23,922 nt of DNA. Source: a virus. How positions within the stretch are numbered: position 1 is the stretch's first letter; each line of letters opens with the position of its first letter. A model generated the notes under the pieces. That model was not told the DNA's origin and made no database searches. It was given only the letters and a program-made list of their open reading frames with translations. Both the position numbers and the translations under genes were made by a program. The DNA lies in IMG/VR virus record IMGVR_UViG_3300018423_001114, positions 1-23,922 of that record; one strand, 5' to 3'. This document shows positions 3,830-21,683 of the stretch, piece after piece.

Positions 3830-5550
3830 ACTGCCTCCCAGCCAAACATCTTTGCGTACTCGTCAATCCACTCCCGCGCTAACGGGCCAAGGTCAAGTTT
3901 GTCACGCTCCATCCACGTCACGAACGCCTCCGCGTACATCTCGCTCATGTCCGTGCGTGCGTACCCTGTTGGGCCGTCCTTACCCTCATACCGCACTACG
4001 CGCTTCGTGCGCTTGCTGTACGCGCTTGGCGCCTCAGCGCGCACAAGAATGCGCTCGTCCGTCTCCAGGCCGGCGTACCGCCATTTCTGCCACAGCGTTT
4101 TCTTCGCTTGCGTGACAACACTCAAAGTGATGTCAGCGTTGTGCCCAATCTCATGCACAAGCGTTCGGTAGACGCCTTCCGCTGGAACGCGTGTGCCCTG
4201 CGACACGCTCCACTCTGGGAAGAACGGTGTGCCAGGTTTCTTGTCCGCTAGTTCGTCCAACAGTTGCGGGTTCACGTTGATGACTCTGCCGCCAATGTTT
4301 GTGCTGGCGCGTGTGTCGCCCTTCGCCCTGTTGCTGAACGAGAACATGAACGTGCGGTCGTCGTCATGCGGCAAGTGTGGACGCGTAGCCGTGACAGCCT
4401 GCCTCGCTGTGTCCATGAACTCAGGGATCATCTCCTTCTTGATGCGGCGCTCCGCGTCTAGGTGCACAGCAAAGTTGGCGTCCTCGTCCCACCAATACTC
4501 GTCTCCACGGTCGAACCGTTGCTGTGCGTATGAGCGATGGAAGTCATCTGGCCCGAAGATTTTTGTAACTGCTGGATCATCAACAGACGTAACCTGCCGC
4601 GGACCTTGCGTGACAGGCGGTGGCGTGACAGTTGTGGGTGCTGTTGGTTGCTTCGGAGGCGTCTTGGGCTTCGCTGTCTTGCCCTTGCCTTTCTTCTTCC
4701 CCCAATGCGTCCAGCCGGACGGGCTGGTTTGCAGTTCCAGCGTGTCGCTGCCCGTGAAACGCTTCTGCTTCGCCTTCGGGCTGTCCGTAAGCACGGGCAG
4801 GATTGCGCAGCGGCAGTTGGGGTGGCGGTACGTATCCATCTCAATGTCGAACACTTGCCCGTCCAACTCCCCGCAGATAGGGCACGCAGACGAGAACGCT
4901 TGCCACTCCCACGCGTCCACGACACCGTTCTGCCGCGCAATCGCGTACGACGCTCTGGACGTTTGATCGTATGCGCGTGCAAGTTGTGTGCGCGCAATCA
5001 TCACGCTACGTCCCTGCCCGAAACGCACCGGATCGTTGATGCTGTCACGCAACCGTTTCGCTGTTTTCGCTGGCGCCTCACCCAGCGCGACACCCGTTTG
5101 CAAGCCGCTAATCAAGCGCGTCTGCACGTCCTTTGTGAGGCTTGTGAAGTCTGCTGTGAGTTGCCCTGTCCTGCCCTGCACGATTGCGCCCATCGCGTCC
5201 CTGTTCGCAACGTTCGCCCAGCCAAGTTCAGCAGCGTCCTCCGCGACAGTCGCAAGCACGTGATCGGGGAGCGCGTTCAGGGACGCCTGCAACGACGTGC
5301 GTGCAGCGTTGTTCGTTGTGTCGATTGCATACGCAGCAACCTGCGCAGTCTCTCCACTGATCGTTGTCACGTTACGGACAGCCTCCGTGAGAACGCGCAG
5401 CCTGTTACGTTCCGAAACTGTCAGCGGGTCTTTGTTGTTGGCAAGCCGCCGTGCCCACTTGTCAATCTCCCCGTCCAGGTCGTCATACGCCGCCTGCCAC
5501 GCTTCGGCTGCGTACCGCGACGGCGCGGCTGGTGCAGCCGGGATCGTCAC
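3826..5550 (-). CDS. MuF-like head protein fused to a C-terminal zinc-metallopeptidase-like domain
   Basis: This 574-aa protein overlaps the portal gene by four bases. Residues 1-255 form a phage Mu gpF-like minor head domain: a helical N-terminus, then RTQLARAYDQ and the zinc-knuckle-like CPICG (223-226) with HPNCRC (243-248). In other phages this domain sits at the portal and may be ejected with DNA. A Lys/Pro/Thr-rich linker (about 284-318) leads to a second domain. That domain contains HEIGH at 466-470, with SEMYAEAF (536-543) downstream offering a third zinc ligand (E537 or E541), the arrangement of gluzincin-type metallopeptidases. MuF proteins are known to carry variable C-terminal effector domains, so an injected or host-directed protease is possible. 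A maturation role in the head is the alternative. Confidence 0.85.
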   Translation of the reverse strand: MTIPAAPAAPSRYAAEAWQAAYDDLDGEIDKWARRLANNKDPLTVSERNRLRVLTEAVRNVTTISGETAQVAAYAIDTTNNAARTSLQASLNALPDHVLATVAEDAAELGWANVANRDAMGAIVQGRTGQLTADFTSLTKDVQTRLISGLQTGVALGEAPAKTAKRLRDSINDPVRFGQGRSVMIARTQLARAYDQTSRASYAIARQNGVVDAWEWQAFSSACPICGELDGQVFDIEMDTYRHPNCRCAILPVLTDSPKAKQKRFTGSDTLELQTSPSGWTHWGKKKGKGKTAKPKTPPKQPTAPTTVTPPPVTQGPRQVTSVDDPAVTKIFGPDDFHRSYAQQRFDRGDEYWWDEDANFAVHLDAERRIKKEMIPEFMDTARQAVTATRPHLPHDDDRTFMFSFSNRAKGDTRASTNIGGRVINVNPQLLDELADKKPGTPFFPEWSVSQGTRVPAEGVYRTLVHEIGHNADITLSVVTQAKKTLWQKWRYAGLETDERILVRAEAPSAYSKRTKRVVRYEGKDGPTGYARTDMSEMYAEAFVTWMERDKLDLGPLAREWIDEYAKMFGWEAV

Positions 5551-19220: not shown

Positions 19221-20210
19221 CTAGAGCAGCGCCAAAGCACGCTGCTTCATCTGGTCGGACTTGCCGGACAGCGTGCGCATTGCTCGCCGTGCGTCCTTGT
19301 CCTTGCCCTTGACGGGACGTGCCCAATCCACCCACTCAGCCACGGTGTTGTACGCAGCCCAGCGCGTGCCCTGGATGTTGGCTTGCGTGTCAGCACGCCA
19401 CAGCGCCATGAGTTCGCGCTGCCTGTTCTCCGCGTTCGATGCGCTGCGCTCAGTCTCACGACCAGGCACAACCAACTTCTTGGCGAACGCTGCGAACTGC
19501 TTGTCCGACATCTCCTGCGCAATCAGTTCCTCAGCCTTCTTCTCAAAGGCCTCCATGTAACGGAACGTCAAGCCCAGCGTCTCGCGTGCCTGGTGCACAC
19601 GGCTGCTCACGTTACGCGTGTGCTTCATTGCGTAACGCTGCCGTGCGCCGCCACGACCCAGCGCCATGTTCAGCGTGTTCTGGCAAACGACACGGATCGG
19701 AGTCACAACCACCTGGAAGGCGCCTGTGCCGTCGTGCGCAGTTGTGCACACCACGTACGACTCAATCATGTCCTCGCCGCCGACCAGCACGTCCTTCGGC
19801 ATTTTCATGCTGATGAACACCTGCTTGCCGTCGTTGATGCTGCCAGCCGTCTCAAACGCTGCGCCATGCTCGTCCACAAGCAGCGACAAGAATGCGAACG
19901 CTTCCGCGTTCTGCACCGGCTCGTACTGATTGCCAACGATGCCCAGCGTTTGCACGCCCAACTTGGGGTGATTGCGGTACGTGGCGAACTTGCCCTCAAC
20001 AGGCAGCGTCGCCACACCATCGTCCGTCAGAACCGTTGTCGTGACAGGCTCAGTCGCTTTGTAGACGCGCCAATCCAACTGCGCAATCTTCAACGCGTCC
20101 TCCGCTGTCAGCGCGCCTTCCGTTACCTCGCCCAACTTGTGCCAAGCCGGAACACGGTTGGAGAAGAACGCGCTAGTTCCATCTTCGAACTGCTCAATGG
20201 CATGTGCCAT
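19221..20210 (-). CDS. DUF932 / TIGR03299 phage-plasmid protein
   Basis: This 329-aa protein begins MAHAIEQFEDGTSAFFSNRV and continues with PAWHKLGEV, the hallmark start of the DUF932 (phage/plasmid-like TIGR03299) family, then FATYRNHPKLGVQTLGIVGNQYEPVQNAEAF (shown in part), and VCQNTLNMAL near the middle. The C-terminal part is helical and charged. The family is common in actinophages and plasmids; its function is unknown. ATG 20210 has AGGAAG eight bases upstream. The leader carries the first tRNA-minihelix-like element. Confidence 0.88.
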   Translation of the reverse strand: MAHAIEQFEDGTSAFFSNRVPAWHKLGEVTEGALTAEDALKIAQLDWRVYKATEPVTTTVLTDDGVATLPVEGKFATYRNHPKLGVQTLGIVGNQYEPVQNAEAFAFLSLLVDEHGAAFETAGSINDGKQVFISMKMPKDVLVGGEDMIESYVVCTTAHDGTGAFQVVVTPIRVVCQNTLNMALGRGGARQRYAMKHTRNVSSRVHQARETLGLTFRYMEAFEKKAEELIAQEMSDKQFAAFAKKLVVPGRETERSASNAENRQRELMALWRADTQANIQGTRWAAYNTVAEWVDWARPVKGKDKDARRAMRTLSGKSDQMKQRALALL

Positions 20211-20261
20211 TTCAATCACTTCCTTTTTCTGTATTGGTGCAACTGCATTGTTGCGTTGCGT

Positions 20262-20300
20262 GCCCTGCCAGGAGTCGAACCTGGCTGCGACCATCAGGGC
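20262..20300 (-). ncRNA. tRNA-minihelix-like RNA element, copy 1
   Basis: The 39-nt minus-strand element has an acceptor-like stem GCCCTG/CAGGGC stacked on a T-arm-like stem CCAGG/CCTGG with the exact tRNA T-loop TTCGACT. A 10-nt linker ATGGTCGCAG replaces the D and anticodon arms, so it cannot decode. It sits between the 93-aa gene and DUF932, at the 5' end of the DUF932 leader, and shares its plan with copy 2. No CCA is encoded. Confidence 0.7.
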
Positions 20301-20308
20301 GCCCCGAA

Positions 20309-20590
20309 CTAACGGATCGGAGTAGTCACAAACGGCGCGCTGCTGCACTCGCGACAAGTTGTGTCATCAACGAAGCAAACGTGTCCATCACACACAAACT
20401 CAGCGCCGCGTGCTGACCCTTGGTACCAAGTGCCGTCCGTTTGATCGGCGGTGCGGTTGCAGCACTTGCACTCAATCTTGCGTGCATACGCGAGCCAAGC
20501 ATTGTTGTTTGCCTTCGCCAAAGCGTTCTCTGCCAACCGACCAGGGCGGCGCGTGAACGGGCCACGAGGACGGTAGTAGTTCTCAGGCAT
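20309..20590 (-). CDS. Cysteine-rich putative zinc protein, function unknown
   Basis: This 93-aa protein has a basic N-terminal half (YYRPRGPFTRRPGRLAENAL) and a cysteine-rich C-terminal half with KCCN, CDGHVCF and CREC, likely one or two zinc sites. ATG 20590 has AGGAG six bases upstream. The leader carries CAACAACAACAG 15 bases upstream of the start, and copy 2 of the tRNA-like element lies further up. No family recognised. Confidence 0.75.
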   Translation of the reverse strand: MPENYYRPRGPFTRRPGRLAENALAKANNNAWLAYARKIECKCCNRTADQTDGTWYQGSARGAEFVCDGHVCFVDDTTCRECSSAPFVTTPIR

Positions 20591-20604
20591 GTGTATCTCC
20601 TGCT

Positions 20605-20616
20605 CTGTTGTTGTTG
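20605..20616 (-). promoter_or_regulatory. CAACAACAACAG leader motif (one of three)
   Basis: The 12-nt motif CAACAACAACAG lies 15 bases before ATG 20590. The same motif occurs at 21274-21285 with the same spacing to ATG 21259, and at 18056-18067, further from bet. Unstructured CAA repeats are known to enhance translation in general. A protein or small-RNA binding site is an alternative. Confidence 0.5.
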
Positions 20617-20654
20617 GACGGTGTTGCTACAAGACCATTGGAAGGTCGTTGCGC

Positions 20655-20695
20655 GCCCTGCGCGGGAGTCGAACCCGCGCTGCGACCGTCAGGGC
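20655..20695 (-). ncRNA. tRNA-minihelix-like RNA element, copy 2
   Basis: The 41-nt copy shares GCCCTG/CAGGGC, the linker A-C-GGTCGCAG and the loop TTCGACT with copy 1, but the T-arm stem is CGCGGG/CCCGCG in place of CCAGG/CCTGG. The stem bases changed on both sides and still pair, while loop and linker are kept, which is what selection on RNA structure looks like. The sequence CGCAACG follows both copies. It begins six bases after the stop of the upstream gene. Confidence 0.7.
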
Positions 20696-20701
20696 TACTT
20701 G

Positions 20702-21259
20702 CTAGTCAGACCAAAGTGTGCGTCCAACCTCGCAGTCAGCAATCTCAAAGTCATCAACGTCCAGCGTCTCCTTGCTCCACGCTGTGAACGTGATGCCTTC
20801 TGGGTCAATGCCAACGTCCACGTTGTTCAAATCAACAAGGTCAGCACCGATTGGAACCTCAACCTCCAACTCAACTGTGACCTTTACCTCCACAGTCTTT
20901 GTCAGCGGAATGCTGTGCTGTTGGCACAGCGATTCGAACCCATCAACAATGGACGCAACGTCCGCACCAGGGTCAGCAGCGCGCAGGTCGTTGTAGAACT
21001 GCTGCATTGCTTCTTCAAGGCGGTTGTACGCCAGGCCCTTTTCCATGTACCGATCTCGTGCTGCGTTGAGTTGCCGCTGCGTCGTCTGCAACTTGTGCGT
21101 CACTTTGTCGTGCGCCTCAAACTCAGCACCAACCAGCAGCGTGTTTGCAGTCTCCAGCATTTCGATGCGGTCCTCGCACGCAACTTTGTTGTCGCTGCCG
21201 TGGTCGTACTGCGCTTCGTTGTACGTGAAAGACGTGACGTCCTCTTGTACGTTCTGCAT
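20702..21259 (-). CDS. Acidic coiled-coil protein, function unknown
   Basis: This 185-aa protein starts at ATG 21259 with AGGAG six bases upstream. It begins MQNVQEDVTSFTYNEAQYDH, with a helical coiled-coil region of about residues 30-95 (KLQTTQRQLNAARDRYMEKG), then a beta-rich acidic domain (VEVKVTVELEVEVPIGADLV) and the end CEVGRTLWSD. No family recognised. It is the first gene after the structured 424-base gap, so probably the first gene of its transcript. Confidence 0.75.
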   Translation of the reverse strand: MQNVQEDVTSFTYNEAQYDHGSDNKVACEDRIEMLETANTLLVGAEFEAHDKVTHKLQTTQRQLNAARDRYMEKGLAYNRLEEAMQQFYNDLRAADPGADVASIVDGFESLCQQHSIPLTKTVEVKVTVELEVEVPIGADLVDLNNVDVGIDPEGITFTAWSKETLDVDDFEIADCEVGRTLWSD

Positions 21260-21683
21260 GTTGTTCTCCTGAACTGTTGTTGTTGTCAGGAGTGCGGTCT
21301 GCACTCCACCCCAAGCACGAGGTCATGCCGAAGCAAACCCCGTGCCTGAGATCCAATACAGACCGTCCACGCCCATCGCTACAGGAGTTCGCTCGCCGTG
21401 CATTGCGCTTGATAGAGGCTTGGCCTCGTGCGGTGCACTTCTGCTTCTCCGCGCTGCCACCCACCAGCCGACCTGGGGGCGCGTGTGCGCTGCGCCGTTG
21501 CGTCCTGTGTTCTGTTGTCAAGTGCCGTGCGCGTGACCCGGTCTACTGCCGAAGCGTCGCCCTGTCGGGGGCTCAACCTGTCTAGCGCATGGCGCTAACC
21601 CTACAGCGGCACGCTGTACGTGTGAAACACCGGGTCCGAAATCGCCTCTATCAGCGGGATCTACGCGTGGCGCAGGAGCAGCA
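21260..21683 (-). ncRNA. 424-base structured non-coding region, possible novel RNA
   Basis: I see no convincing gene here. The minus strand can form a stem of 8 bp (21535-21542 with 21629-21636) that closes hairpins of 7 bp (21602-21618), 6 bp (21583-21597) and 4 bp (21559-21572), a cloverleaf-like plan. A second stem of 11 bp with one wobble (21315-21325 with 21421-21431) closes another domain. A 7-bp hairpin (21289-21307) and then CAACAACAACAG (21274-21285) precede the next gene. It could be a structured RNA, a leader with regulated termination, or an origin. Confidence 0.5.

Follow-up and report, generated by a model that had tools for sequence, protein, structure and literature searches.

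The window, the entire 23,922-nucleotide stretch of viral DNA analyzed here, covers part of the genome of a tailed phage and includes terminase, portal, capsid, RecT, RusA, and DUF932 genes. Two minihelices, elements A and B, lie between genes on its minus strand and were located by sequence, by a structural descriptor, and by a covariance model, R2. Element B (41 nt; 20695 to 20655) starts 6 nt past the stop codon of an ORF with no family match (20702 to 21304, minus strand) and ends 64 nt upstream of a 93-aa ORF, likewise with no family match (20309 to 20590, minus strand). Element A (39 nt; 20300 to 20262) starts 8 nt past the stop codon of the 93-aa ORF and ends 51 nt upstream of the gene for the DUF932 protein (19221 to 20210, minus strand; Pfam PF06067, E = 6e-62; phrog_1221). 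The position past a stop codon and ahead of the next gene that the first-pass annotation had described was thus confirmed for both.

On the minus strand, element A reads GCCCTG-ATGGTCGCAG-CCAGG-TTCGACT-CCTGG-CAGGGC, then A-CGCAACG, and consists of an acceptor stem (20300 to 20295 and 20267 to 20262), a D-loop-like linker (20294 to 20285), a T-stem (20284 to 20280 and 20272 to 20268), and a T-loop (20279 to 20273). Element B reads GCCCTG-ACGGTCGCAG-CGCGGG-TTCGACT-CCCGCG-CAGGGC, then G-CGCAACG, with its acceptor at 20695 to 20690 and 20660 to 20655, linker at 20689 to 20680, T-stem at 20679 to 20674 and 20666 to 20661, and T-loop at 20673 to 20667. As first noted from the two copies alone, they share the acceptor GCCCTG/CAGGGC, a 10-nt linker (AYGGTCGCAG), the 7-nt T-loop TTCGACT, and the downstream CGCAACG. 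The T-stems (CCAGG/CCTGG in A versus CGCGGG/CCCGCG in B) differ by two pairs changed on both sides and one whole pair inserted, with pairing kept, so that the combined acceptor and T helix is 11 bp in A and 12 bp in B. Directly 3′ of each element is a dinucleotide resembling N73-C74 of tRNA, AC for A (20260 to 20261, minus strand) and GC for B (20654 to 20653, minus strand). A second minus-strand hairpin can be folded 3′ of A (20239 to 20259; −8.9 kcal/mol, z = −1.9), at a place where hairpins are in excess family-wide, and another 3′ of B (20626 to 20654; −10.5 kcal/mol, z = −2.2). A descriptor scan of the window found no further minihelices of this geometry. Both elements are present in the only close relative of the window, IMG/VR 3300017968_001129, which matches it at 98.6% identity across the stretch they share.

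Folded singly, A and B have energies that fall short of significance (z = −0.3 to −0.7), which is common among GC-rich 40-mers, and the evidence for these two elements is therefore comparative. Genuine tRNAs were rejected at both sites, since ARAGORN called none, Rfam was negative, and a 10-nt linker alone joins the acceptor to the T-arm, with no cloverleaf. At gathering thresholds, Rfam identified no family in the window, and its sole match in ten loci that carry elements was an ordinary tRNA; the best subthreshold match of A, the mascRNA-menRNA family (RF01684), was rejected at 21.9 bits against a cutoff of 42.5.

Searches with a descriptor that specified only pairing geometry and the T-loop, and did not require the linker GG, returned 151 matches in 771 kb, compared with zero to one in shuffled sequence, and the matched acceptors vary freely. 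The family as sampled here counts 137 distinct members across 53 phage loci; because the element sets were drawn from related phages, these counts do not represent independent events. One element, in locus L158, a distant terminase relative, also lies past a stop codon and ahead of a gene. When a seed pattern built from A, B, and the L158 element was run against IMG/VR, most of the matches listed were minihelices and nearly all lacked a tRNA call. Matches in loci L164 to L166, which show no flanking pairing in the sequence, look like chance and were set aside, and false matches to tRNA genes beside DUF932 relatives were removed with ARAGORN.

Cultured carriers include Streptomyces phages (e.g., Joe and phiCAM), the Mycobacterium phages Fowlmouth, Cuke, MyraDee, and Mulciber, and the Gordonia phage VanLee. 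Elements also occur in pneumococcal prophages of Streptococcus, such as EJ-1, and in phages of Riemerella and Elizabethkingia. We found no minihelix in phiC31, in the early region of HK022 that encodes the put RNA, or in Bxb1 and Kampy, although Mulciber has one, and BLAST searches with the L214, L177, and L202 regions returned no cultured relative. One pattern detected only nine stretches in 85,000 bacterial genomes, some of them by chance, and at least 2 of 198 actinobacterial genomes contain elements, a lower bound given the strict filters. The minihelices are mainly a phage feature and are rare in bacterial chromosomes.

The stems of these elements covary. A motif-only search that specified the linker GG and the T-loop and made no use of pairing yielded 154 distinct non-tRNA matches; 117 had full acceptor pairing, representing 25 acceptor sequences, whereas permutation gave 13.6 on average and 23 at most. 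Neither this acceptor test nor the linker pairing of the GGC class reported below was computed on descriptor-chosen elements, as some of the other statistics were. When 54 elements were aligned without gaps, changes on both sides were found at 10 of 11 pairs, and covariation reached 0.836, compared with 0.169 when shuffled and at most 0.19 when slid; the percentage paired in this alignment is uninformative because its elements were chosen by the pairing descriptor. Loss of pairing in other phages' homologues had been proposed by the first-pass annotation as the observation that would count against its reading. Pairing was instead kept: in flank-matched element pairs, double changes account for 46 paired positions and single-sided changes for 6. 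The R2 model, built from the 54-element alignment with window sequences left out, recovered both window elements in a search of 340 kb (E = 9.6e-6 for A and 1.2e-3 for B); it had no matches in phiC31, phi80, or two tRNA-bearing loci. At the level of sequence comparison, these results demonstrate a conserved RNA structure of the minihelix family. The idea that the elements are chance hairpins or ordinary intrinsic terminators, for which the insignificant single-sequence fold scores could be cited, has negligible probability and is refuted by the comparative data, namely, the excess over shuffled sequence and the stem covariation; moreover, runs of four or more T's occur in only 2 of 137 elements, and no terminator was called at A or B.

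The linker has a structure of its own. GG is present in 137 of 137 linkers, within the consensus A-N-Y-G-G, despite not being required by the descriptor (for a minority of elements, a partial version of it was specified by the seed pattern), and it resembles G18G19 of the tRNA D-loop. Within the GGC class, Watson-Crick pairing joins linker positions 2 and 8 in 60 of 61 elements (25 expected), and linker position 9 pairs with T-loop position 60, as A-U or G-C, in 61 of 61. Conservation within the elements is highest in the D-loop and T-loop. Based on this covariation, the linker is shown to be a D-loop remnant, with predicted D-loop/T-loop contacts. The first-pass annotation was right that A and B lack an anticodon arm and are not tRNAs; what it called a linker, however, retains the invariant GG of a D-loop and covaries with the T-loop. 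Its structural reading of a covarying tRNA-like minihelix without an anticodon arm is correct and far more general than the window alone.

More elaborate forms occur elsewhere in the family. Several VanLee linkers form complete D-hairpins whose loops contain GG and whose stems show compensatory changes, and at L316:7798-7912 in this phage the D-hairpin and the 5′ strand of the T-stem are tandemly duplicated inside one element. Also in VanLee, a 91-nt tRNA-Val called by ARAGORN (L316:4245-4335) overlaps the end of a gene and a complete minihelix (4288-4333) and is probably a false call. Two Fowlmouth gaps are occupied by elements that carry large structured inserts at the anticodon position (L290:11868-11931 and L290:12925-13137).

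The best parallel that we found is the tRNA-like domain of tmRNA (RF00023), which likewise has an acceptor, an A-N-Y-G-G D-loop without a D-stem, and a T-arm with TTCGATT. Actinobacterial host tmRNAs begin GGGGGTG-ACCGG or GGGGGTG-AATGG; relative to the tmRNA D-loop consensus, the GG of A and B is shifted by one. An 81-nt stretch past a gene end in another phage locus (L182:7989-8069; IMG/VR 3300028587_000159) matched the Rfam tmRNA model at 51.6 bits (cutoff, 47) and has no room for a tag or pseudoknots, leaving the tRNA-like domain of tmRNA alone. The phage elements differ from tmRNA in being 40 nt long, in occurring in many copies between genes, and in lacking the tag reading frame, pseudoknots, G3:U70, and CCA. 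In A and B, the acceptor and T-arm are 10 nt apart, the tag reading frame and pseudoknots are absent, and so are G3:U70 and an encoded CCA, which occur in 2 of 137 and 1 of 137 family elements, respectively. A homology with tmRNA is suggested. SmpB binds the tRNA-like domain of tmRNA. The elements might act uncut, in cis: their tRNA-like elbow would recruit a factor that binds tRNA or tmRNA (SmpB, a phage protein, or an enzyme that modifies tRNAs, for instance), and this factor would stabilize the mRNA, influence reinitiation, or target RNA polymerase. The tmRNA likeness and the strong conservation of the D-loop and T-loop fit such a role, which we nevertheless consider rather unlikely: elbow binding alone would not need conservation of R73-C74 and G1, and no factor gene was linked to the elements.

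Placement relative to genes is as regular as structure. Across the 53 loci, with ORFs of at least 60 codons, 113 of 137 elements (82%) are positioned between −12 and +20 nt relative to a stop codon on the same strand, compared with 75 of 685 random positions (11%), and 97 of 137 are 30 to 60 nt ahead of a start with a Shine-Dalgarno sequence, compared with 74 of 685 at random. The elements are thus shown to lie right past stops and ahead of starts, and A and B conform, being located between same-strand genes, a few nucleotides past a stop and 30 to 65 nt before a start. In Joe, Fowlmouth, and VanLee, an element was found in 27 of 36 gaps of at least 70 nt and in 0 of 39 smaller gaps, and some of the empty larger gaps contain element variants. 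Complete tRNA genes in family loci also adopt this stop-tRNA-start geometry in 10 of 77 cases. In phiC31, a tRNA-Gly called by ARAGORN between genes 13 and 14 and unannotated in the record (L291:31424-31511) is likewise placed between a stop and a start, at distances of 14 and 33 nt. At L239:1038-1110, a minihelix is followed directly by the apparent start of a tRNA gene. A T-arm-like repeat, TATAGGTTCGAATCCTATTG, is found upstream of the tRNA genes of an AT-rich phage (L062:1010-1080), with a geometry unlike that of the minihelix family.

Strands are never mixed in the 26 loci with multiple elements. This observation argues against another early suggestion, that the elements are remnants used for recombination, and against the wider reading in which remnants of tRNA genes serve for attachment or recombination or delimit gene cassettes. 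Their recurrence beside small accessory genes fits such an origin, but the stems show compensatory rather than sequence conservation, several diverged copies lie between the genes of one genome, and the genes examined next to A and B yielded no integrase call; we consider this origin extremely improbable.

The second hairpin is also recurrent. It starts 2 to 5 nt past the acceptor and is variable in sequence, and stems of at least 7 bp are found at 54 of 137 elements, where ∼8 are expected (mean z, −1.7). A variable hairpin at this place could mean that two stacked hairpins simply shield mRNA ends or insulate neighboring genes, the tRNA likeness being incidental, yet the strict T-loop, the GG, and the tertiary covariation far exceed what a generic hairpin calls for and make this highly improbable. 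Alternatively, the functional molecule might be the excised minihelix itself, acting as a small, stable decoy RNA for RNase P, RNase Z, or a different host factor that binds tRNA. Many copies per genome and the absence of aminoacylation signals are compatible with a decoy, whereas a trans-acting RNA would need neither the second hairpin nor a fixed stop-element-start geometry, and we view it as improbable.

RNase P identifies its substrates by the T-loop and elbow and gauges the helix formed by stacking of the acceptor and T stems; it also contacts G1-C72 and base pairs with R73-C74-C75 (PMC11143913). The family keeps a helix of 11 to 13 bp, R73 and C74 in 76 of 77 elements of the 11-bp class, and G1 in 96 of 137 elements; A and B themselves fit in their T-loop, stacked helix near 12 bp, and R73-C74. 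Cutting by host tRNA-processing enzymes is proposed because these RNase P features are kept while the anticodon, CCA, G3:U70, and terminator U-runs are missing. Against it, the commonest helix, at 11 bp, is one short of the 12 bp of tRNA, C75 is not conserved, and N−1 is mostly A. Among the three roles advanced by the first-pass annotation, cutting by RNase P or RNase Z is the best supported, by R73-C74, the 11- to 13-bp helix, the stop-start placement, and the lack of a terminator signature. We consider it somewhat probable that the elements are RNase P-type processing signals that would cut phage mRNA between genes as a reduced form of tRNA punctuation, our confidence being limited by the nonconserved C75 and the helix one pair short of that of tRNA.

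Under this processing model, the element would fold within the phage polycistronic mRNA, where host tRNA-processing enzymes, most likely RNase P, would recognize the elbow, the stacked helix, G1-C72, and R73-C74. A cut at the 5′ end of the element, and perhaps at its 3′ end too, would part the upstream from the downstream mRNA; the upstream mRNA would end a few nucleotides past its stop codon, and the minihelix, the second hairpin, or both may shield the new 5′ end of the downstream mRNA. Separately from the structural result, we infer that the elements are transcribed through and cut and that this affects expression.

Several known systems bear comparison. Acceptor and T-arm hairpins alone suffice for RNase P cleavage in vitro, as the model substrates AT1 and pMini are cut at the canonical site; these constructs were made in the laboratory, carry a 3′ RCCA, and lack a D-loop, whereas the phage elements are a natural family (PMC11143913). 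Phage RNAs are also natural substrates of host RNase P, namely, M3 of phi80 and the C4 antisense RNA (PMC11143913). M3 is annotated as an oop homologue and was rejected as a minihelix, and the window and ten loci of the family were all free of C4 matches at the gathering threshold. In mitochondria, tRNA punctuation follows the logic proposed here, with RNase P and RNase Z cutting at tRNA folds between genes; the phage elements differ in that they are not functional tRNAs, belong to bacterial viruses, and are only proposed to be cut. Plant mitochondrial t-elements and mascRNA/menRNA are tRNA-like folds, not tRNAs, that act as processing signals; they belong to another kingdom, and the phage elements lack an anticodon-side arm.

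Elements A and B are best explained as members of a widespread phage family of mini-tmRNA/mini-tRNA elements. This family occurs in cultured phages, among them Joe, Fowlmouth, and the prophage EJ-1, has no Rfam entry, and is unannotated at the sites examined. We found no published description of it in the openly licensed literature, although an earlier one elsewhere is possible. Chances are about even that it represents a new phage RNA class, a counterpart of mitochondrial tRNA punctuation spread over phages of Actinomycetota, Bacillota, and Bacteroidota, in which reduced tmRNA/tRNA-like domains between genes would turn host RNase P into an mRNA-segmenting enzyme. The family suggests a general phage route to splitting polycistronic mRNA by host RNase P, and it offers natural minimal substrates for work on RNase P and elbow recognition as well as a natural series of tRNA mimics ranging from D-arm-bearing to D-loop-only forms. 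If the processing model is true, processed 5′ ends in phage RNA-seq data may have passed for start sites.
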